Shown here: piece by piece, positions 45,140-56,831 of the stretch
Numbering within the stretch: position 1 is the stretch's first letter
How the letters are laid out: each line of letters opens with the position of its first letter
Notes under the pieces: model-generated
What the model was told of the DNA's origin: nothing
Database searches by the model: none
Seen by the model: the letters and a program-made list of their open reading frames with translations, nothing else
Origin: Tepidimonas alkaliphilus
GTDB lineage: Bacteria; Pseudomonadota; Gammaproteobacteria; Burkholderiales; Burkholderiaceae_C
Direction: 5' to 3'
DNA length: 64,000 bases
Assembly (NCBI RefSeq): GCF_007556595.1
Contig: NZ_VJNB01000001.1
Span: forward strand, 186,001-250,000
Made by a program: the position numbers and the translations under genes

Positions 45140-45157
45140 TCAGGAGGGTTGCGCATC

Positions 45158-47011
45158 ATGAGCCTACAACTTTGGACTTATTTGGTCGTCGGCGCGACGT
45201 TTGCCCTTTACATCGGCATTGCCATCTGGTCGCGCGCCGGCAGCACGTCGGATTTCTATGTCGCCGGCAGCGGGGTGCATCCCGTGACCAACGGCATGGC
45301 CACCGCGGCCGACTGGATGAGCGCGGCCTCGTTCATCTCGATGGCCGGGCTGATTTCCAACATGGGCTACGGCGGCGCGGTGTTCCTGATGGGCTGGACG
45401 GGCGGCTACGTGCTGCTGGCCTGCCTGCTGGCGCCTTACTTGCGCAAGTTTGGCAAGTTCACCGTGCCGGAGTTCATCGGTGATCGCTACTACTCGCAGA
45501 CCGCGCGCAACGTCGGCGTGATTTGCCTATTGATTGCGTCGATTACCTACATCATCGGCCAAATGACCGGCGTCGGCGTGACGTTCTCGCGCTTTTTGGG
45601 CGTTTCCAGCGACATGGGCATCTACATCGGCATGGCCATTGTGTTCGCCTACGCGGTGTTTGGCGGCATGAAGGGCATCACCTACACCCAGGTGGCGCAA
45701 TACATCGTGCTGATCCTGGCCTATCTGGTGCCGGCGTTTTACATTTCGCTGGCGCTGACCGGCCACGTGCTGCCGCAAATCGGATTGGGCGCCAACCTGA
45801 GCGGCACCGATGTGTCGCTGCTGGACAAGCTCAACCAAGTGCTGGTGGACCTCGGGTTTGGCGAATACACCTCGCAGGTGGCGGGCAGCAAGCTCAACAT
45901 GTTCTTCTTCACCGTGTCGTTGATGATTGGCACGGCGGGCCTGCCGCACGTGATCGTGCGCTTCTTCACCGTGCCGAAGGTGGCCGACGCGCGCGCCTCG
46001 GCCGGTTGGGCGCTGGTGTTCATCGCGCTGCTCTACACCACCGCGCCGGCGGTCGGCGCGATGGCGCGCCTCAACCTTATCGGCACCGTCAACACCGCCG
46101 TTGGCGTCGAGCCCGATCCAGCTGGCGGCGTGCGCATCAACGCCGACAAGGTCAAGGCCGGCGGCGACTTGATGAGCCCCGAGGCTTCGCTGCCGTATGA
46201 GCAGCGCCCGGAATGGTTCAAGCGCTGGGAAAAGACCGGCCTGCTGAAATTCGAGGACAAGAACGGCGACGGCCGCATCCAGTTCTACAACGACAAAACC
46301 AGCAATGAAGCCGTCAAGGCCAAGGCTGAGGCCGCTGGCTTCAAGGGCAACGAGCTGACTGTGAACGCCGACATCATCGTGCTGGCCAACCCGGAGATCG
46401 CGCTGCTGCCGAACTGGGTGATCGCGCTGGTGGCCGCCGGCGGTCTGGCCGCGGCGCTGTCCACGGCGGCGGGCCTGCTGCTGGCGATCTCGTCGGCGAT
46501 CTCGCACGACCTGATCAAGGGCGCCATCAACCCCCACATCAGCGAGAAGGGCGAGCTGCTGGCCGGCAAGATCGCCATGGCCGGCGCCATCGTCGTGGCC
46601 GGCTACCTGGGCCTGAACCCGCCGGGCTTTGCCGCCGGCACCGTGGCGCTGGCCTTCGGCATCGCCGCCTCGACGATCTTCCCGGCGCTGATGATGGGCA
46701 TCTTCAGCAAGAAGGTGACCAGCGCCGGCGCGATCGCCGGCATGCTGTCGGGCCTGTTCGTGACGCTGTTCTACGTGTTCGCGCACAAGGGCATCTTCTT
46801 CGTCAAGGGCACCGAGTACCTGGACCTGATCGGCGGCGCCAACAGCTTCTTCGGCATCACGCCGGAGGCGTTCGGCACCGTGGGCGCGATCGTCAACTTC
46901 ATCGTGGCGTTCGCCGTGAGCAGCATGTCCAAGCCGGTACCGGCGCACATCCAGGAGCTGGTGGAATCGGTGCGCGTGCCCAAAGGGGCTGGCGCGGCGA
47001 TCGGCCATTGA
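45158..47011 (+). CDS. Na+/solute (probably acetate/carboxylate) symporter, VC_2705 subfamily
   Basis: The 617-residue protein is a 13-helix SSS-family symporter. Landmarks are DFYVAGSGVHPVTNGMATAADWMSAASFI, FVAYAVFGG-like AYAVFGGMKGITYTQVAQYIVL, the Na+-site helix GTAGLPHVIVRFFTVPK and GLAAALSTAAGLLLAISSAISHD. Homologs transport acetate or short carboxylates. Between two helices is a soluble insert of about 110 residues with an EF-hand-like loop DKNGDGRIQFYN (residues 367-378). CAGGAGGG 9 bases upstream supports the ATG at 45158 over the TTG at 45149. It pairs with the DUF4212 gene upstream. The exact substrate is not determined. Confidence 0.88.
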   Translation: MSLQLWTYLVVGATFALYIGIAIWSRAGSTSDFYVAGSGVHPVTNGMATAADWMSAASFISMAGLISNMGYGGAVFLMGWTGGYVLLACLLAPYLRKFGKFTVPEFIGDRYYSQTARNVGVICLLIASITYIIGQMTGVGVTFSRFLGVSSDMGIYIGMAIVFAYAVFGGMKGITYTQVAQYIVLILAYLVPAFYISLALTGHVLPQIGLGANLSGTDVSLLDKLNQVLVDLGFGEYTSQVAGSKLNMFFFTVSLMIGTAGLPHVIVRFFTVPKVADARASAGWALVFIALLYTTAPAVGAMARLNLIGTVNTAVGVEPDPAGGVRINADKVKAGGDLMSPEASLPYEQRPEWFKRWEKTGLLKFEDKNGDGRIQFYNDKTSNEAVKAKAEAAGFKGNELTVNADIIVLANPEIALLPNWVIALVAAGGLAAALSTAAGLLLAISSAISHDLIKGAINPHISEKGELLAGKIAMAGAIVVAGYLGLNPPGFAAGTVALAFGIAASTIFPALMMGIFSKKVTSAGAIAGMLSGLFVTLFYVFAHKGIFFVKGTEYLDLIGGANSFFGITPEAFGTVGAIVNFIVAFAVSSMSKPVPAHIQELVESVRVPKGAGAAIGH

Positions 47012-47523: not shown

Positions 47524-48351
47524 CTAGGTGGCGGCTGCGCTGTGGCGCGCCTCCAAATCCTGCCGGATCAGGGTGGCGATTTCCTCGATCGATTTGTGCG
47601 TGGTGGACAGCACTCGAATCCCCGCGCGGCGCATCAGCGCCTCGGCCTCGCGCACTTCGTAGCGGCACTGCTCTAAGCTGGCGTAGCGCGAATGGGGGCG
47701 GCGCTCGTGGCGAACTTCGCTCAAACGCACCGGATCGATGGTCAAGCCAAAGAGCTTGGTGCGATGCGGCAGCAGCGCCGAGGGCAGTTGCCCGCGCTCG
47801 AAATCGTCGGGAATCAACGGGTAGTTCGAAGCTTTAAGCCCGAACTGCAACGCCAGGTAGAGCGAGGTGGGCGTCTTGCCGCAGCGGCTGACGCCGACCA
47901 GAATCACATCCGATTGCTCTAGGTTGGCGTCGGTTTGGCCATCGTCGTGCTCCAACGTGAAATGGATGGCTTCGATGCGGTCGTGGTATTCGCGGCTGCG
48001 CGTCACGTCCGAAAAGCGCCCCACCCGATGGTTGGATTTCATGCCGAGCTCTTGTTCCAGCGGGGCGATGAAGGTGCCAAACATGTCGATCAGCATGCCT
48101 TGGCAGTGTTGCTGCAGCACCTGCATCACTTCGGGATTGACCACGGTGGTGAACACCAGCGGGCGGGCGCCATCGACGGCAGCCGCATGATTGATTTGGC
48201 GCACCGCCTGATGGGCTTTGTCCGCATCATCCACAAACGGCAGCCGCACCCGCCGCGGGCGGATTTCAAATTGCTTCAACAGCGCATCGGCAAAGGTTTC
48301 GGCGGTGATGCCCGTGCCGTCCGAGACAAAAAACGCAGTGCGGTGGGACAT
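47524..48351 (-). CDS. ppsR: PEP synthase regulatory protein (kinase/pyrophosphorylase, DUF299)
   Basis: PpsR inactivates PEP synthase by ADP-dependent phosphorylation of a threonine and reactivates it by phosphate-dependent removal. The 275-residue protein has AFFVSDGTGITAETFADALL at the N-terminus, GMKSNHRVGRFSDVTRSREYHDRIEAIHFTLEHDDG (split here for the family core HRVG...YHDRIEAI), the P-loop-like VILVGVSRCGKTPTSLYLA, and LTIDPVRLSEVRHER. It is divergent from ppsA across about 210 bases, the usual beta- and gammaproteobacterial arrangement. Confidence 0.95.
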   Translation of the reverse strand: MSHRTAFFVSDGTGITAETFADALLKQFEIRPRRVRLPFVDDADKAHQAVRQINHAAAVDGARPLVFTTVVNPEVMQVLQQHCQGMLIDMFGTFIAPLEQELGMKSNHRVGRFSDVTRSREYHDRIEAIHFTLEHDDGQTDANLEQSDVILVGVSRCGKTPTSLYLALQFGLKASNYPLIPDDFERGQLPSALLPHRTKLFGLTIDPVRLSEVRHERRPHSRYASLEQCRYEVREAEALMRRAGIRVLSTTHKSIEEIATLIRQDLEARHSAAAT

Positions 48352-48401: not shown

Positions 48402-48564
48402 CGGCCCCAGTTCAGGGCAGATGGCGCGCCAGCGCAGCGCGCCGCATCGGCGCCTTCCGCTCCAGGCTGCGGGCGCGCGTCATTCAGATGGCGGCGCAGG
48501 CGGCAGGGCGCCCGAGTGTTCTGCTCCAAAGTTTTTCTTTTCAACCATCCGGAGTGTAGTTCCC

Positions 48565-50958
<2,394 letters not shown>

Positions 50959-51009
50959 GACGCCCCGGGCGGCGCGCTGCCGGCCTGGAGCGAGCTCTGG
51001 GGAGCGGAC

Positions 51010-53175
51010 GTGCCACGTCGCTTCGACCCACGTTGGGCTTGGCTGCTGCTCGGCGCAGCCGTCGTCTCGCTGGTGTGGCTGGCGGCCACCGTCGGGTTGA
51101 TCGCCCTTACGCTGGAGCCGCCCGCCCGCCAGCGCATGCTGGCGTTGCTGGGCGATCGCTGGACGCTGGCGCTGCTGATGTGGCTGCTGGGCATGGCAGC
51201 TATCGCCTGGGGGTTGCAAAAGGCCTTTGAAGTTGCGGTGCACCCCTGGCGGCGGTTGGCCGAGGAGGCGGCGGTGCGGTTGACCTCGCCGGCGGCGCCG
51301 GCGCTGCCGGAGCGCGGCCCCGCCGACGTGCGTCGGGTCGCGCGGCTGTTCAACGAGCTGCTGCGGCAACGCGATGAATGGCGCAGCGAGGTGCAAACGC
51401 GCGTGCGCGAGGCCGCGCGCGCCATCGAGCAGGAAAAGCAGCGGCTGGCGGCGTTGATGGCCGAGCTGACGCAAAGCGTCATCGTCTGCAACCTCGACGG
51501 ACGCGTGCTGCTCTACAACCAGCGCGCGCGCTGGCAAGTGCGCGCCCTGTCGCAGGCGCCGGCGGCGCTGGCCGGCGCTGAGTTGCTTGGGCTGGGGCGC
51601 TCGATTTACGCGGTGCTGGATCGCAGGCTGATTGCCCATGCGCTGGAGGAGCTGCGCCAGCGCTTGCGCAAAGGCGCCGTTCAGCCCAGCGCCCAGTTCG
51701 TCACCGCCACGCGCAGCGGCCAGCTGTTGCGCGTGCAGGTGGCGCCCGTGCGCGACCTCGGCGATGCCGGGCAAGGGGAGGGGATCAGGGACCCGGCGGC
51801 GCTGGCGGGGTTTGTGTTGCTGCTGGACAACATCACCCGCGAGTACGAGCAATGGCAGCAAGCCCTGCAGCGGTGGAACGAAGCGCTCCACAAGGTCGAG
51901 GCGGAATGGGCTGACGTGGCCGCCGCGTGGCAACTCGCCGCCGACGGGGCGCGGTCGGCAGAGGTTCAAGGCGCGCTGCCGCAACGCCTGCACGCGCTGC
52001 GCCAGCAATTGCAGCAGGCGCTGCGGGCTGCGCAGGCGCAGGCGCAGGCGTGGGTGCATTGGCCCGCCGAGGAGTTGCGCGGCGCCGACTTGCTGGCGGT
52101 GTTGCAGCGCCGCTTGTCCCAGCTCGAGGGGTTGCAAGTCGAAGTGGAACCCTGCGCGTTGGATGAGGTCGTGCGCGTGGAACCCTTGGGCCTAGCCCAT
52201 GCGTTGGCCGGCGTGCTGCAACGGCTGTGCAACCACCGCCCCAACCACGGCGCTTGTTTGCGACTGCGGGCCCTGCAGGGCGATTCAGGATGCATCCGGC
52301 TGGAGGCGGTATGGCCCCAGCCCGCTGGCGCGGATTGGCCGCTGCACGCTTGGCTCGAAGAGGCGGACGCAGCGCCGCTGAGCCTGCGCGAGCGGCTGCA
52401 GCCATTCGGTGGCGGCTGTCGCTGGCAACTTGACGAAGAGGGGCTCCGTCTTTGCCTGGATCTGCCGCTGGCGCCGCATCCGGCGCCGCCGCCGCCCGAG
52501 ATGCCGATCACCAGCCGGCCTGAGTTTTATGATTTTGATTTGTTTTCCTCGACGCCGGCAGCGCTGGCCTGGGATGAACGACCGCTGGCCAGCCTTTCTT
52601 ACACGGTGTTCGACACCGAGACCACCGGTTTGCAGCCGTCCAAGGGCGATCAGATCCTTCAGATCGGCGCCACCCGCATCGTCAACGGTCGCCTGCTGCG
52701 CCATGAAAGCTTCGAGCAGCTGATCGATCCCCAACGCCCGATTCCGCCTGAGAGCACCGCTATTCACGGCATCACGCCTGCCATGGTGCGCGGCCAGCCC
52801 ACCATCGAGCAGGTGCTGCCCGCCTTTCATGCCTTTGCGCGCGACACGGTGCTGGTGGCCCACAACGCGGCCTTTGACCTGCGTTTCTTGCAGCTCAAAG
52901 CCCGCAGCGCGGGTGTCACGTTCGACCAGCCGGTGCTGGATACCTTGCTGCTGTCGGCGGTGGTGCACCCGCAGCAGCCGTCGCACAGCCTGGAGGCGAT
53001 CGCGGCGCGTTTGGGCATCCCGGTGCTGGGACGCCACACGGCGTTGGGCGACGCCCTTGTCACGGCAGAGGTGTTCCTGCGCCTGATCCCGCTGTTGGAA
53101 AAGCAAGGCATCGTCACGCTGGGGCAGGCGCGTCGCGCCGCGGAGCGCACCTACTACGCGCGCCTGACATATTGA
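51010..53175 (+). CDS. Membrane sensor-like protein fused to a DnaQ-type 3'-5' exonuclease
   Basis: The 721-residue protein has an N-terminal two-helix membrane unit (about 10-33 and 48-66), a HAMP/coiled-coil region, a PAS-like domain (AELTQSVIVCNLDGRVLLYN onward, about 150-280), a helical and degenerate ATPase-like region (about 280-490) and a complete DEDDh exonuclease (about 520-715). Exonuclease residues are Asp535 and Glu537 (FDTETTG), Asp623 (HNAAFD), His676 and Asp681 (HTALGD). I see no phosphoacceptor His motif and no N or G boxes, so kinase activity is doubtful. Start is a GTG with GGGGAG upstream. Its role in symporter signalling is inferred from neighbours only. Confidence 0.82.
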   Translation: MPRRFDPRWAWLLLGAAVVSLVWLAATVGLIALTLEPPARQRMLALLGDRWTLALLMWLLGMAAIAWGLQKAFEVAVHPWRRLAEEAAVRLTSPAAPALPERGPADVRRVARLFNELLRQRDEWRSEVQTRVREAARAIEQEKQRLAALMAELTQSVIVCNLDGRVLLYNQRARWQVRALSQAPAALAGAELLGLGRSIYAVLDRRLIAHALEELRQRLRKGAVQPSAQFVTATRSGQLLRVQVAPVRDLGDAGQGEGIRDPAALAGFVLLLDNITREYEQWQQALQRWNEALHKVEAEWADVAAAWQLAADGARSAEVQGALPQRLHALRQQLQQALRAAQAQAQAWVHWPAEELRGADLLAVLQRRLSQLEGLQVEVEPCALDEVVRVEPLGLAHALAGVLQRLCNHRPNHGACLRLRALQGDSGCIRLEAVWPQPAGADWPLHAWLEEADAAPLSLRERLQPFGGGCRWQLDEEGLRLCLDLPLAPHPAPPPPEMPITSRPEFYDFDLFSSTPAALAWDERPLASLSYTVFDTETTGLQPSKGDQILQIGATRIVNGRLLRHESFEQLIDPQRPIPPESTAIHGITPAMVRGQPTIEQVLPAFHAFARDTVLVAHNAAFDLRFLQLKARSAGVTFDQPVLDTLLLSAVVHPQQPSHSLEAIAARLGIPVLGRHTALGDALVTAEVFLRLIPLLEKQGIVTLGQARRAAERTYYARLTY

Positions 53176-53218: not shown

Positions 53219-54667
53219 TCAGAAGCGTCCGGCAAGGTAGCGCTTTTCCAACACGCTTTGCAAATCTTTGACCACCGCGAAGGCGTCTTTGAGGTGGCGC
53301 CGCTCCAGCGCCGACAGCTCCGCCGGTCGCAGATGGTTGTTGGCCGCATGCCCGGCCTCCAGCTGCCGTGCTTGATGCCGCACGCGCAGCGTGCTCAAAA
53401 ATTCCAGCGCATCGACCAGGTCGCGCGCCCGATCGGGGCTGATTTCGCCGCTGTCGGCGCCGCGCAGCAGCCGCTCGCGCGTGTTGACCGCGGCGATGCC
53501 ACCGGCCAGCGCATACACCCGCGCCAAATCCACAATCGGCACGATGCCGCTGTGTTTGAGGTCGATGGCGCCGGCGTGCTCGCCGTCGCGCAGGGTCTGA
53601 ATGCGGCCAAGCCAGTTCAGCGGCGGCGTGTGCGTCAGCGCGTTGGCGACCATGTGCGCAAGGAAAATGCGCTGCCCCGGCGTGCGCGCCAGCACTTCGG
53701 CGCGCAGCGTCTCCAGCAGCCCGCGCTCGCCAGCGACGAAGCGCTGGTCGAAGAACACGCAGGTCAGCATCAGCGCCTTCGGGTCCGGCGTCTCGATCCA
53801 GCTGCGAAACAGTTCTTGCCAGCGCGCCCGCGGCAGGCGCCACTGGGGCGTCGTCGCCATCATCTCGCCAGGGCAATAAACGTAGCCGCAGGCATGCAGT
53901 CCATCGCATACCCAGCGGGCCAGCGCCGCAAAGTAAGCGCCATGGCGCGCCTCGTCATAGGCATCGTCCAGCACCAGGCAGTTGTCTTGGTCGCTTTGGG
54001 CGGTTTGCTCGTTGCGGCCCTGCGAGCCGGCTGCGACCCACGCGTAAGGCACCGGCGGTGGCCCGAGCTCGCGCTCGGCCAGCTGCAGCAGCCGCATCGT
54101 CAGCGCATCCGTCAGCGCCGAGACCACCCGCCCGATGGCGTGCGCCGAGGCGCCGGCGGCCACCAGCTGGCGCTGCAATGCACCGACGCGTTGGGTCACT
54201 CTGCGCAGGTCTTCCACCGTGTCTTGCTGGTGGAGGGCGTGCGCCAGCACCACCGCCGAGTCGCTCTGGCGCTGCTGCAGGTCGGTGCTGGAGATCAGCC
54301 CGACCACGCGTCCGCCTTCGGTCACTGGCACGTGATGGATGTTGTGCCGCGCCATCAGCAGCAGCGCATCGAACGCAGCGTCGCCAATGTCCACTGTCTG
54401 CAGCGCCGTGGTGGCAATCTCGATCACCGGCCGCGCCGGGTCGAGCCCGGCGGCCAGCACGCGGTTGCGCAGGTCGCGGTCGGTGACGATGCCGCGCAGC
54501 GCCCCCTCTTCGGCGATCAGCACCGAGGAGACGCCGTGCTCGCGCATGCGCTGGGCGGCGGCGCGGATCGGCAGCTGGGGCGGCACGCACAATGGCGCGC
54601 GGCGCAGCAACGCGCGCACCGGAGTGGCCGACAAGATCGGGGTGTCGTCGTGCGACGGGGCTGACAT
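53219..54667 (-). CDS. CBS-domain protein with DUF294 GlnD-like nucleotidyltransferase
   Basis: The 482-residue protein has a CBS pair (about 20-140: CVPPQLPIRAAAQRMREHGV, GIVTDRDLRNRVL, IHHVPVTEGGRVVGLISSTDL), then a DUF294 nucleotidyltransferase domain with the GlnD-like site AGSQGRNEQTAQSDQDN (Gly-Ser then Asp-x-Asp), and a C-terminal DUF294 domain containing GIVPIVDLARVYAL. CBS pairs usually bind adenine nucleotides. Proteins of this plan recur beside VC_2705 symporters and are suspected to regulate uptake or metabolism by nucleotidylation. It is convergent with the sensor-exonuclease gene and divergent from the second symporter. Confidence 0.85.
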   Translation of the reverse strand: MSAPSHDDTPILSATPVRALLRRAPLCVPPQLPIRAAAQRMREHGVSSVLIAEEGALRGIVTDRDLRNRVLAAGLDPARPVIEIATTALQTVDIGDAAFDALLLMARHNIHHVPVTEGGRVVGLISSTDLQQRQSDSAVVLAHALHQQDTVEDLRRVTQRVGALQRQLVAAGASAHAIGRVVSALTDALTMRLLQLAERELGPPPVPYAWVAAGSQGRNEQTAQSDQDNCLVLDDAYDEARHGAYFAALARWVCDGLHACGYVYCPGEMMATTPQWRLPRARWQELFRSWIETPDPKALMLTCVFFDQRFVAGERGLLETLRAEVLARTPGQRIFLAHMVANALTHTPPLNWLGRIQTLRDGEHAGAIDLKHSGIVPIVDLARVYALAGGIAAVNTRERLLRGADSGEISPDRARDLVDALEFLSTLRVRHQARQLEAGHAANNHLRPAELSALERRHLKDAFAVVKDLQSVLEKRYLAGRF

Positions 54668-54740
54668 AAGGCGACAACCTGACAGGTGGCGCTAACATCG
54701 CCATCCTACCGCGCCTGCCAGCCGATTCACTCATTTGGGC

Positions 54741-56831
54741 ATGTCCGCCTCCCCACCCCACACCGATTTGACGCGTCCCTTGCTGGCGCTGTATGCGCGC
54801 TTTGCGCTGGCGTTCGTGCTGTTCATCGTGCTGCTGGGGGCACTGGAGCAGCTGGGCTGGCCGCGCACCTGGATCGGCATGCTGCTGTTGCTGGCCACGC
54901 TGGCCGTCTATGCCACCATCGGCGTGTGGGCGCGCACCGTCGATCCGGTGGAGTATTACGTCGCAGGTCGGCGGGTGCCGGCGCTGTTCAACGGCATGGC
55001 GCTGGCGGCGGATTGGCTGTCGGCGGCGTCGTTCATCGGCCTGGCCGGCACCTTGTTCATGCAGGGCTATGGCGGGCTGGCGTTTGTGCTGGGCTGGTCG
55101 GGTGGTTTCGTGCTGGTGGCCTTGCTGTTGGCCCCCTATTTGCGCCGCTTCGGTCAATTCACGATCCCGGACTTTCTCGCCGAGCGCTACGGCGGCGTTT
55201 GGCCGCGTCTGATCGGGGTGGTGGCGGTGTTGCTGTGTTCGTTTGTCTATGTGGTGGCGCAGATCGTCGGGGTCGGGCTGATCACCTCGCGGCTGACCGG
55301 GCTGGCGTTTGAGGTGGGCGTCTTCCTCGGACTGGGCGGCATTCTGGTGTGCTCGTTCTTGGGCGGGATGCGCGCCATCACCTGGACGCAGGTGGCGCAA
55401 TATATCGTGTTGATCGTGGCGTTTGTCACGCCGGTGCTGTGGCTGTCGTTGAAGCAGACCGGCTCGTGGCTGGCTCCGTTGGCTTACGGCACGCAACTGC
55501 AGCTGGTGACCGCACGCGAACAAGCGCTGCGCGACGCGCCCGAGGAGCGGCACGTGCAGCGCATCTGGGCCCAGCAGGCGCAGGTATTGGAGCAGCGACT
55601 GCGCGACCCTGCCGCGGCCTTGCAGCGCGAGCGCGCCCAGCTCGAAGGTCATTGGCAAGCGCTGCAGCAGATGGGGGCGGATCCGGCAGAGATCGCGGCG
55701 GTGGAGCGGGCGCTGGCGCGCCTGCCGCGCGATGAGGCCAGCGCCCGCCAGCTCTGGAGCCAGCAGTGGGCGCAAGCGCAAGCGCGCGCCCAGCCGCTGG
55801 GCGGCCTGCCGCCCCATGCGCAGCCGTTTGCGGGTGATCCCGACGGCTCGCCACAGGAGCGCGCCGCGTTTGAGCACAGCCGGCGCAATTTTTTGGCGTT
55901 GGTGCTGTGCTTGGTGCTGGGCACCGCTTCGTTGCCCCATTTGCTGATGCGCTTTTACACCGTGCCCAGCGTGGCCCAAGCCCGCACGTCGGTGGCGTGG
56001 GGCATTGTGTTCATCGCCATCCTGTATTGGACGGCGCCGGCGTTGGCGGTGCTGGTGAAATACGAAGTTTTTACGCAGCTGGTTGGCACCCGCTTTGAGG
56101 CGCTGCCGTCGTGGGTGGCGGCGTGGAGCCAGGTTGATCCATCCCTGCTGTCGGTGCACGACGTCAACCGCGACGGTGTGCTGCAGTTGGGCGAAATCAC
56201 GCTGGGTGGCGACATCATTGTGCTGGCTGCGGCCGAAATTGCGGGCCTGCCCTATGTGGTCGCCGCGCTGGTGGCCGCCGGGGGCTTGGCTGCGGCGCTG
56301 TCCACGGCGGATGGTCTGTTGCTGACCATCACCAGCGCCCTCAGCCACGATGTGTATTACAAGACCCTGGCGCCGGCAGCGGTGACGGCGCGCCGGGTGG
56401 CGTTGTCCAAAGTGGTGCTGCTGTTGGTGGCCTTGCTGGCGGCGTATGTGGCTGCGCAAAAGCCGGCGGACATCCTGTTGCTGGTGGCCGCGGCGTTTTC
56501 GATCGCGGCCGCAGCCTTGTTTGCGGCGCTGGTGCTGGGTATTTTTTGGTCCCGCGCCAATGGCGCTGGGGCGGTGGCGGGCATGCTGGTCGGCATGGGC
56601 GTCACGCTGGGCTACTTGGCATGGAACCAGCCGTGGCTGCGCGGGGTGCTGGGCATCACCGGCGAGCCGCGCCTGTGGTGGGGAATCGACCCGATTGCCG
56701 CCGGCGTGTTTGGCGTTCCCGCCGGGGCGCTGACGCTGGTGGTGGTCAGCTTGCTGACGCGCCCGCCTTCGCCTCAGCGACGCGCGTGGGTGCGGAAGTT
56801 GCACGTTCCTGGCCCGGACGAGCTACAATAG
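54741..56831 (+). CDS. Second VC_2705-type Na+/solute symporter with long insert
   Basis: The 696-residue SSS-family symporter matches the first one: EYYVAGRRVPALFNGMALAAD, SFLGGMRAITWTQVAQYIVL, GTASLPHLLMRFYTVPS and GGLAAALSTADGLLLTITSALSHD. Two features differ. A charged, coiled-coil-like insert of about 110 residues (about 255-365, LEQRLRDPAAALQRERAQLE) occupies one loop, and a canonical EF-hand loop DVNRDGVLQLGE lies at residues 474-485. There is no DUF4212 partner; the extra N-terminal helix (LALAFVLFIVLLGALEQLG-like, residues about 15-40) may replace it. The ATG at 54741 is preferred to the TTG at 54735. Confidence 0.85.
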   Translation: MSASPPHTDLTRPLLALYARFALAFVLFIVLLGALEQLGWPRTWIGMLLLLATLAVYATIGVWARTVDPVEYYVAGRRVPALFNGMALAADWLSAASFIGLAGTLFMQGYGGLAFVLGWSGGFVLVALLLAPYLRRFGQFTIPDFLAERYGGVWPRLIGVVAVLLCSFVYVVAQIVGVGLITSRLTGLAFEVGVFLGLGGILVCSFLGGMRAITWTQVAQYIVLIVAFVTPVLWLSLKQTGSWLAPLAYGTQLQLVTAREQALRDAPEERHVQRIWAQQAQVLEQRLRDPAAALQRERAQLEGHWQALQQMGADPAEIAAVERALARLPRDEASARQLWSQQWAQAQARAQPLGGLPPHAQPFAGDPDGSPQERAAFEHSRRNFLALVLCLVLGTASLPHLLMRFYTVPSVAQARTSVAWGIVFIAILYWTAPALAVLVKYEVFTQLVGTRFEALPSWVAAWSQVDPSLLSVHDVNRDGVLQLGEITLGGDIIVLAAAEIAGLPYVVAALVAAGGLAAALSTADGLLLTITSALSHDVYYKTLAPAAVTARRVALSKVVLLLVALLAAYVAAQKPADILLLVAAAFSIAAAALFAALVLGIFWSRANGAGAVAGMLVGMGVTLGYLAWNQPWLRGVLGITGEPRLWWGIDPIAAGVFGVPAGALTLVVVSLLTRPPSPQRRAWVRKLHVPGPDELQ
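56799..56829 (+). promoter_or_regulatory. Probable promoter of the rpsF operon
   Basis: TACAAT at 56824-56829 with a possible TTGCAC at 56799-56804 (19-base spacer, longer than ideal). It lies across the stop codon of the upstream symporter gene and about 60 bases before rpsF. Confidence 0.45.

Follow-up and report, generated by a model that had tools for sequence, protein, structure and literature searches.

What controls a nuclease that is built into the same membrane protein as a set of signalling domains? This question is raised by a gene of Tepidimonas alkaliphilus at 51010-53175 on the forward strand of the 64,000-nucleotide stretch that we analyzed (the window; contig NZ_VJNB01000001.1, positions 186,001 to 250,000), which encodes a protein of 721 amino acids from a GTG start with an open frame throughout. 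From its N-terminus, the protein carries a membrane hairpin, a coiled coil, a PAS domain, a histidine kinase core that has lost its catalytic motifs, and a DEDDh exonuclease; we refer to the protein and its homologs as EXO and to the loci of relatives by L numbers. The original prediction, made from the sequence of the window, described a sensor whose probable output is the nuclease itself. We agree that the nuclease is the most likely output. We disagree that the protein is an autonomous membrane sensor: its family, mostly encoded next to a stand-alone receiver (REC) and an SLC5-type histidine kinase, has the look of a two-component effector.

The C-terminal exonuclease (residues 526-712; 52585..53145) is apparently intact, as had been predicted. 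Pfam RNase_T matches residues 533-689 with an E-value of 1e-39 (137 bits, against a cutoff of 24), and the five residues Asp535, Glu537, Asp623, His676, and Asp681 do not vary among 94 homologs, a few of which are front-truncated by contig ends. The best solved relative of the domain is the PolC exonuclease 2p1j (E 2.5e-34). Like the DEDDh enzymes of the PolC, DnaQ, and DinG type, EXO has all of the catalytic residues; unlike them, it joins the exonuclease to a signalling module and not to a polymerase or helicase.

In the wider alignment, this DEDHD residue set is kept in 125 of 128 rows. A related set without the exonuclease residues does exist, but it is confined to the remaining three genomes, all of one genus (L112, 6067-8190; L113, 509-2734; L114, 6075-8243), in which the sensor is kept, all five nuclease residues are lost, and a diverged REC still lies directly upstream. 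That these genomes keep the protein and its upstream REC could mean that the exonuclease fold merely binds a partner (the DUF294 protein described below, the transporter, or RNA) and that catalysis is beside the point. We consider this scaffold role quite improbable, given how rarely the DEDDh residues are lost; in the nuclease-dead genus the REC has also diverged, and we found no match to DUF294 or a symporter within the 9-14 kb stretches examined. There, kinase, nuclease, and receiver seem either to have decayed jointly or to have shifted to a non-catalytic role.

Residues 277-490 are the remnant of a histidine kinase that is catalytically dead. Neither HisKA nor HATPase of Pfam matches the window protein, but a profile of this region built from 77 members matches histidine kinases in the PDB across both the DHp and CA domains (best 9m08, E 8.7e-11) and also matches DivL (4q20, E 2.2e-5). 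The fold was tested on the corresponding region of L034 (Tepidicella), whose AlphaFold model (predicted local distance difference test score, pLDDT, 90.5) shows a DHp hairpin followed by a CA sandwich; its best Foldseek match is 8vc9 (E 1e-10), and VIA aligns it to the CA domain of 1ys3 with a Z-score of 15.8 over 134 residues (root-mean-square deviation 2.5). For the window protein itself, we relied on the secondary structure of the full-length model alone, which places two long helices at residues 276-349 (pseudo-DHp; 51835..52056) and an alpha/beta sandwich at residues 354-487 (pseudo-CA; 52069..52470). The degenerate ATPase-like region noticed earlier, for which a structure prediction of residues 280-490 had been suggested, is a kinase remnant by the family profile and by the L034 model.

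The catalytic motifs of that core are gone across the family. The H, N, and G2 box patterns are matched in none of 124 sensor-bearing rows and the G1 pattern in one, so that nuclease residues are retained while kinase boxes are lost, the combination for which a survey of homologs had been suggested. The same patterns (H, N, G1, G2) were matched in 44, 43, 44, and 43 of 44 neighboring kinases, a control set picked for holding HELRTPL. The column of the phosphorylated His holds Glu in 85 of the 124 rows and His in only one, the window protein, and the Arg three residues further on is kept in 116 rows but is Glu in the window, where the family's Arg297 stood in a DHp that has decayed. The earlier statement that no phosphoacceptor His is visible therefore holds for the motif and not for the residue: His294 does fall in the phospho-His column. 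We rejected it as a working phosphoacceptor because it is the sole His in the column, its neighbors are decayed, and the kinase and REC genes are missing from the locus. An active kinase was likewise rejected, since no H, N, or G2 motif occurs in any of the 124 homologs.

The N-terminal half is largely as described before. In the full-length AlphaFold model of the window protein (mean pLDDT 83.6, below 50 at residues 492-508), the hairpin is followed in turn by the coil, PAS, DHp, CA, the linker, and the exonuclease. Helices at 7-34 and 37-76, with hardly any loop between them, form a membrane hairpin without a periplasmic domain (51028..51237), and two hydrophobic segments recur in 84 of 90 family members of at least 690 amino acids. 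Helices at 78-92 and 105-151 support the predicted coiled coil, a HAMP-like signalling segment (residues 78-151; 51241..51462), but HAMP as a firm assignment was dropped: it rests on position and helices, and among 65 members Pfam reports HAMP in one, compared with RNase_T in 65, PAS_4 in 37, and HisKA in 6 (best E 0.001). A PAS-like unit occupies residues 153-274 (51466..51831), where Pfam PAS_4 matches weakly at 153-249 (E 0.012, below the cutoff). The linker at residues 488-525 (52471..52584) carries a family-conserved RPExYDFDLF-type motif, its RPE..DF pattern being matched in 110 of 124 rows. Cys160 of the PAS domain (51487-51489) is invariant across 77 aligned rows and is a possible cofactor or redox site.

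EXO is widespread. Full-length homologs are found in 13 of 39 relatives searched (excluding the genome itself), including all 10 congeners; a full-length model detects 25 of 369 sampled genomes of the class (E<=1e-40; own genome included, some matches partial), and an exonuclease-domain model detects 58 of 398 sampled genomes of the phylum (E<=1e-45; own genome included). To describe its neighborhood we used 80 named loci, the best 80 of 555 confirmed relatives, many of them short stretches; these come from Burkholderiales, Rhodocyclales, other Gammaproteobacteria, Desulfobacteraceae, and a few metagenome-assembled genomes (MAGs) labelled Spirochaetia, Caldilineaceae, and others. A REC gene lies upstream of EXO on the same strand in 57 of them by clustering, 31 of these with a 4-nt overlap at the chosen start; by profile, REC is present in 60, absent from 16, and cannot be scored in 4 that lack upstream sequence. 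An SLC5-type histidine kinase gene is found 334-583 nt ahead of EXO in 45 loci, and CBS-DUF294 (53), symporter-like (41), PpsA (3), and PpsR (3) genes are also found nearby. A hold-out set of 20 loci, drawn from the 58 exonuclease-model genomes of the phylum sample, has REC before EXO in 18, in one of them (L199) weakly, at 87 bits.

All 65 REC sequences compared keep the acidic pair, phospho-Asp, and Lys; in the 124-residue REC of L037, Response_reg is the sole family above the cutoff, with no DNA-binding response-regulator domain. The kinase of L052 has HisKA and HATPase above the cutoff. Pfam SSF does not match it at E 0.01; we nevertheless label it transporter-like because its membrane part matches PDB 10ed (E 6e-73), which is listed as a histidine kinase and which we take to be CbrA, and because profile comparison matches seven SLC5-type kinases to six symporters, among them the two of the window (probability 94%, E 1e-7). 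In joining an SSS-like membrane part to HisKA and HATPase, the kinase resembles those of the CrbS/CrbR (MxtR/ErdR) and CbrA/B systems, the SLC5-STAC kinases. The partner differs: in the EXO operon it is a single-domain REC whose gene immediately precedes EXO, leaving no space for a DNA-binding domain, whereas CrbR is reported to be an activator of transcription (PMC5715377).

Loss of REC goes with decay of the dead DHp domain. Each row was scored with segment models built from REC-adjacent rows, minus the row tested and rows more than 75% identical. The DHp comparison covers 97 of 108 rows; we dropped L112-L114 (dead nuclease, with a diverged REC that our first adjacency rule missed), L115-L118 (no DHp), and L085, L087, L088, and L110 (the contig starts within the gene or right at it). 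At the bottom of the DHp scores, the five lowest, -0.2 to 6 bits, belong to L061, L120, the window, L073, and L065, all without an adjacent REC, and none of the 77 rows with REC is among them. Judged by adjacency (77 with, 20 without), DHp scores are lower without REC (p 0.003) while CA scores are not (p 0.32).

The split becomes sharper when REC is judged genome-wide. A search of 22 genomes, 19 without an adjacent REC and 3 controls, found REC in 13; counting the window, 10 genomes have none, and 10 rows have REC elsewhere in the genome, with normal DHp in 9 of these. Between the 87 rows with REC and the 10 without, median DHp scores are 89 and 26 (p 7e-7), whereas PAS, CA, and exonuclease scores do not differ (p 0.27, 0.35, and 0.16). 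After regression on PAS and exonuclease scores, REC-lacking genomes account for the seven lowest DHp residuals, and the 10 such genomes all rank within the lowest 13 (p 2e-7, with kinship not corrected). On a quick tree from which the DHp columns were left out, we count 6 changes of REC state; the window clusters inside its genus together with L005/L006 and L003/L004, and L065, L073, L078, L081, and L082 form one clade. In 6 independent pairs, with a residual cut of -25, 6.0 agree on average (median p 0.031, range to 0.0625). Two hold-out loci lack REC, their genomes having best REC matches at paralog level (87 bits for L184, 84 for L201): L184 scores 22 bits for DHp against 331 for the exonuclease, and L201 has no detectable DHp. 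L201 counts for little because it is, like L197 and L198, too divergent for the DHp model.

These data bear on the idea that EXO is an autonomous sensor-nuclease after all, in which the PAS and membrane parts sense, the kinase remnant is a mere linker, and REC and kinase are only co-transcribed. It would fit L115, where the exonuclease has an N-terminal membrane part (by eye), no DHp-CA region aligns, and the gene adjoins DUF294 and symporter genes; it would also fit the window protein, whose PAS and membrane parts stay conserved (75% and 73% identity to congeners) after the loss of REC. We nevertheless regard it as unlikely. Against it, DHp decays in REC-lacking genomes while PAS, CA, and exonuclease scores show no difference, and REC precedes EXO in 57 of the 80 named loci and in 18 of the 20 held out.

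The window offers a view of this loss within a single genus. All 10 congeners have kinase and REC matches beside EXO. The locus L178, which begins inside PpsA, continues with kinase, REC, EXO, DUF294 on the opposite strand, and SSF; L179 has a fragment of PpsR at one edge and runs from PpsA through SSF, L180 runs from PpsR through SSF with the kinase split across two frames, and L177, a short contig, holds the kinase end, REC, EXO, DUF294, and SSF. Compared with the order PpsA-kinase-REC-EXO-DUF294-SSF of L178-L180, the window lacks only the kinase and REC: its order is PpsR, PpsA, a gap of 51 bp, EXO, then DUF294 and SSF. The gap (50959..51009) lies where congeners hold the SLC5-type kinase and REC genes, about 3.4 kb in L178. 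By eye, L178 also has, at about 2260-2470, a short open reading frame (ORF) that encodes two hydrophobic stretches and lies after ppsA and before the kinase gene; the gap of the window is too small for it. A stand-alone REC of the EXO type has no match within the 64-kb window; the best match in the genome is at paralog level (88 bits, 43%, against 146-193 bits for RECs in 13 other genomes). An SLC5-type histidine kinase, as in CrbS/CrbR, was likewise not found in this genome, which gives matches to the kinase half only, from query position 613 onward.

The window copy has lost its input genes, and it is atypical of the family for that reason. Its mean identity to congeners is 83% in the exonuclease, 75% in PAS, 73% in the membrane part, 30% in CA, and 18% in DHp; among the congeners themselves, the values are 91, 80, 53, and 65 for exonuclease, PAS, CA, and DHp. 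One could see in the lost kinase and REC genes and the decayed DHp and CA a gene on its way out. We think this very unlikely, as the frame is open for 721 codons, the exonuclease and PAS parts remain close to those of congeners, and all five nuclease residues are kept. With the docking domain decayed and the membrane, PAS, and nuclease parts conserved, the window copy would instead be either constitutive or steered by its PAS and membrane parts alone.

How might a receiver act on a dead kinase? DivL of Caulobacter offers a precedent: its dead kinase core reads a phosphorylated receiver, DivK~P, through a docking surface (PMC4211667). EXO is likewise a pseudo-histidine kinase with a PAS domain, it may by analogy have a receiver partner, and its profile matches DivL, as noted above. 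DivL has Tyr at the His site where the EXO family mostly has Glu. To our knowledge, DivL has no nuclease domain, whereas EXO ends in one; receiver binding by EXO is suggested by the genes, a stand-alone REC being encoded with the family but not with the window copy. The gene neighborhood and the co-loss of REC and DHp make DivL-like logic, with the DEDDh domain as output, the best explanation.

We therefore favor, with a probability of roughly 0.6, a model in which EXO is a two-component effector with nuclease output, gated by docking of REC on the pseudo-DHp and acting in carboxylate metabolism. The SLC5-type kinase would sense a carboxylate or its transport and phosphorylate the stand-alone REC; REC~P would dock on the catalytically dead DHp of membrane-anchored EXO; and the PAS-DHp-CA rod would relay docking to the exonuclease. 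The exonuclease would work with the CBS-DUF294 nucleotidyltransferase encoded nearby in the use of acetate and pyruvate. We infer the docking, the direction of control, the nuclease activity, its substrate, and the signal; the domain anatomy, the missing kinase motifs, the kept nuclease residues, the conserved neighborhood, and the co-loss are observed.

Several observations weigh against this model. By adjacency, exonuclease (p 0.008) and PAS (p 0.03) scores are also lower without REC, and adjacency could reflect co-regulation only. At a residual cut of -45, 4.6 of 6 pairs agree (p 0.0625), and both cut-offs were fixed after the residuals had been seen. L197 and L198 have REC yet score just 6 and 16 for DHp, L111 and L105 have an adjacent REC yet lowered DHp residuals, and L101, with REC elsewhere, has a lowered DHp. 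Ten EXO genes without an adjacent REC have one elsewhere in the genome, at least three of them beside a second EXO paralog (L181, L182, L125), so that action of REC in trans must be assumed. Several REC-lacking genomes are MAGs, whose absences may reflect incompleteness, and the cut of the REC search, 1e-25, lies just beyond the best paralog match of the window genome, 6.6e-25. The decay of CA in the window is not predicted by REC loss elsewhere. Because L112-L114 lack the nuclease residues yet have a diverged REC upstream, the nuclease need not be the only output. Finally, PP_0353 of P. putida, to which we turn below, is probably a stand-alone form of the exonuclease.

Some genomes have paralogs of EXO, and gene fusions point to a second partner. 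L181, L182, L124, and L125 each have two EXO paralogs, one beside REC and an SLC5-type kinase and the other without. The common neighbor, a putative nucleotidyltransferase with the architecture CBS-CBS-DUF294-DUF294_C, is adjacent to the window EXO at 53219-54667 on the opposite strand. A stand-alone exonuclease lies beside DUF294 in L116, and L117 (6025-8187) and L118 (4418-6679) encode single-ORF fusions, exonuclease-CBS-DUF294-DUF294_C, a Rosetta-stone link between the predicted nuclease and nucleotidyltransferase. In the Pseudomonas-genus loci L172-L176, taken from the 5 genomes out of 59 in which a match extended as far as the exonuclease model does, a CBS-DUF294 ORF overlaps a stand-alone exonuclease ORF of 252-391 amino acids (stop to stop), to which the window protein aligns in its exonuclease part only.

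This RNase_T and CBS pairing is also that of PP_0353 and PP_0354 in P. putida. The two genes form an operon within the acetate and pyruvate regulon of MxtR/ErdR (CrbS/CrbR); deletion of PP_0353 delays growth on pyruvate with the same final density, the PP_0354 mutant is not impaired, and the authors speculated on mRNA degradation (PMC9927547). In P. aeruginosa, judging from PMC9927547 and PMC9765439, the homologs next to actP are probably PA3232-PA3233.

The pairing raises the idea that DUF294 nucleotidylates a protein or an RNA 3' end and that the DEDDh enzyme removes the nucleotide, which would add to the effector model and not oppose it. DUF294 is near EXO in 53 of 80 named loci, is fused to the exonuclease in two genomes, and overlaps the stand-alone exonuclease ORF in five Pseudomonas loci; moreover, DUF294_C is classed with the GlnD/GlnE C-terminal domains (PMC3710099). 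That the PP_0354 mutant lacks the pyruvate defect of the PP_0353 mutant (PMC9927547) speaks against it, and we hold the idea to be somewhat unlikely. Tentatively, and still short of even odds, we would extend the model to a class of two-component output in which a transporter-like kinase signals through a free receiver to a membrane pseudokinase-exonuclease, which would pair with DUF294 as eraser and writer, on RNA 3' ends or on a protein, to tune the use of carboxylates; the window would then be a natural deletion of the input half.

The metabolic signal suggested earlier from the neighboring genes fits what we find, and it is probably a carboxylate, given the transporter-like kinase, the symporters, PpsA and PpsR, and the published MxtR/ErdR link. 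In the window, PpsR, the phosphoenolpyruvate (PEP) synthase regulatory kinase/phosphorylase, lies at 47524..48351 on the reverse strand, and PpsA, the PEP synthase, at 48565..50958 on the forward strand (with the start placed by eye, the ORF as listed opening at 48421). The ppsR-ppsA-EXO-DUF294 block is flanked on both sides by VC_2705-family sodium/solute symporter genes on the forward strand, one at 54735-56831 and a second copy at 45149-47011.

Two-component systems mostly end in transcription factors, and we know of few histidine pseudokinases that read a receiver. A search of the open literature, mostly without full texts, turned up no account of the pseudokinase-exonuclease or of its receiver. 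Since kinase and receiver were lost in nature while the docking domain decayed selectively, a single pair of sister species would be enough to test the docking idea, and the model suggests a mechanism to seek behind the unexplained pyruvate phenotype of the putative nuclease PP_0353. If true, nutrient transport would be tied to nucleic-acid or nucleotide turnover through a conserved neighborhood of transporter-like kinase, free receiver, dead kinase, and nuclease.

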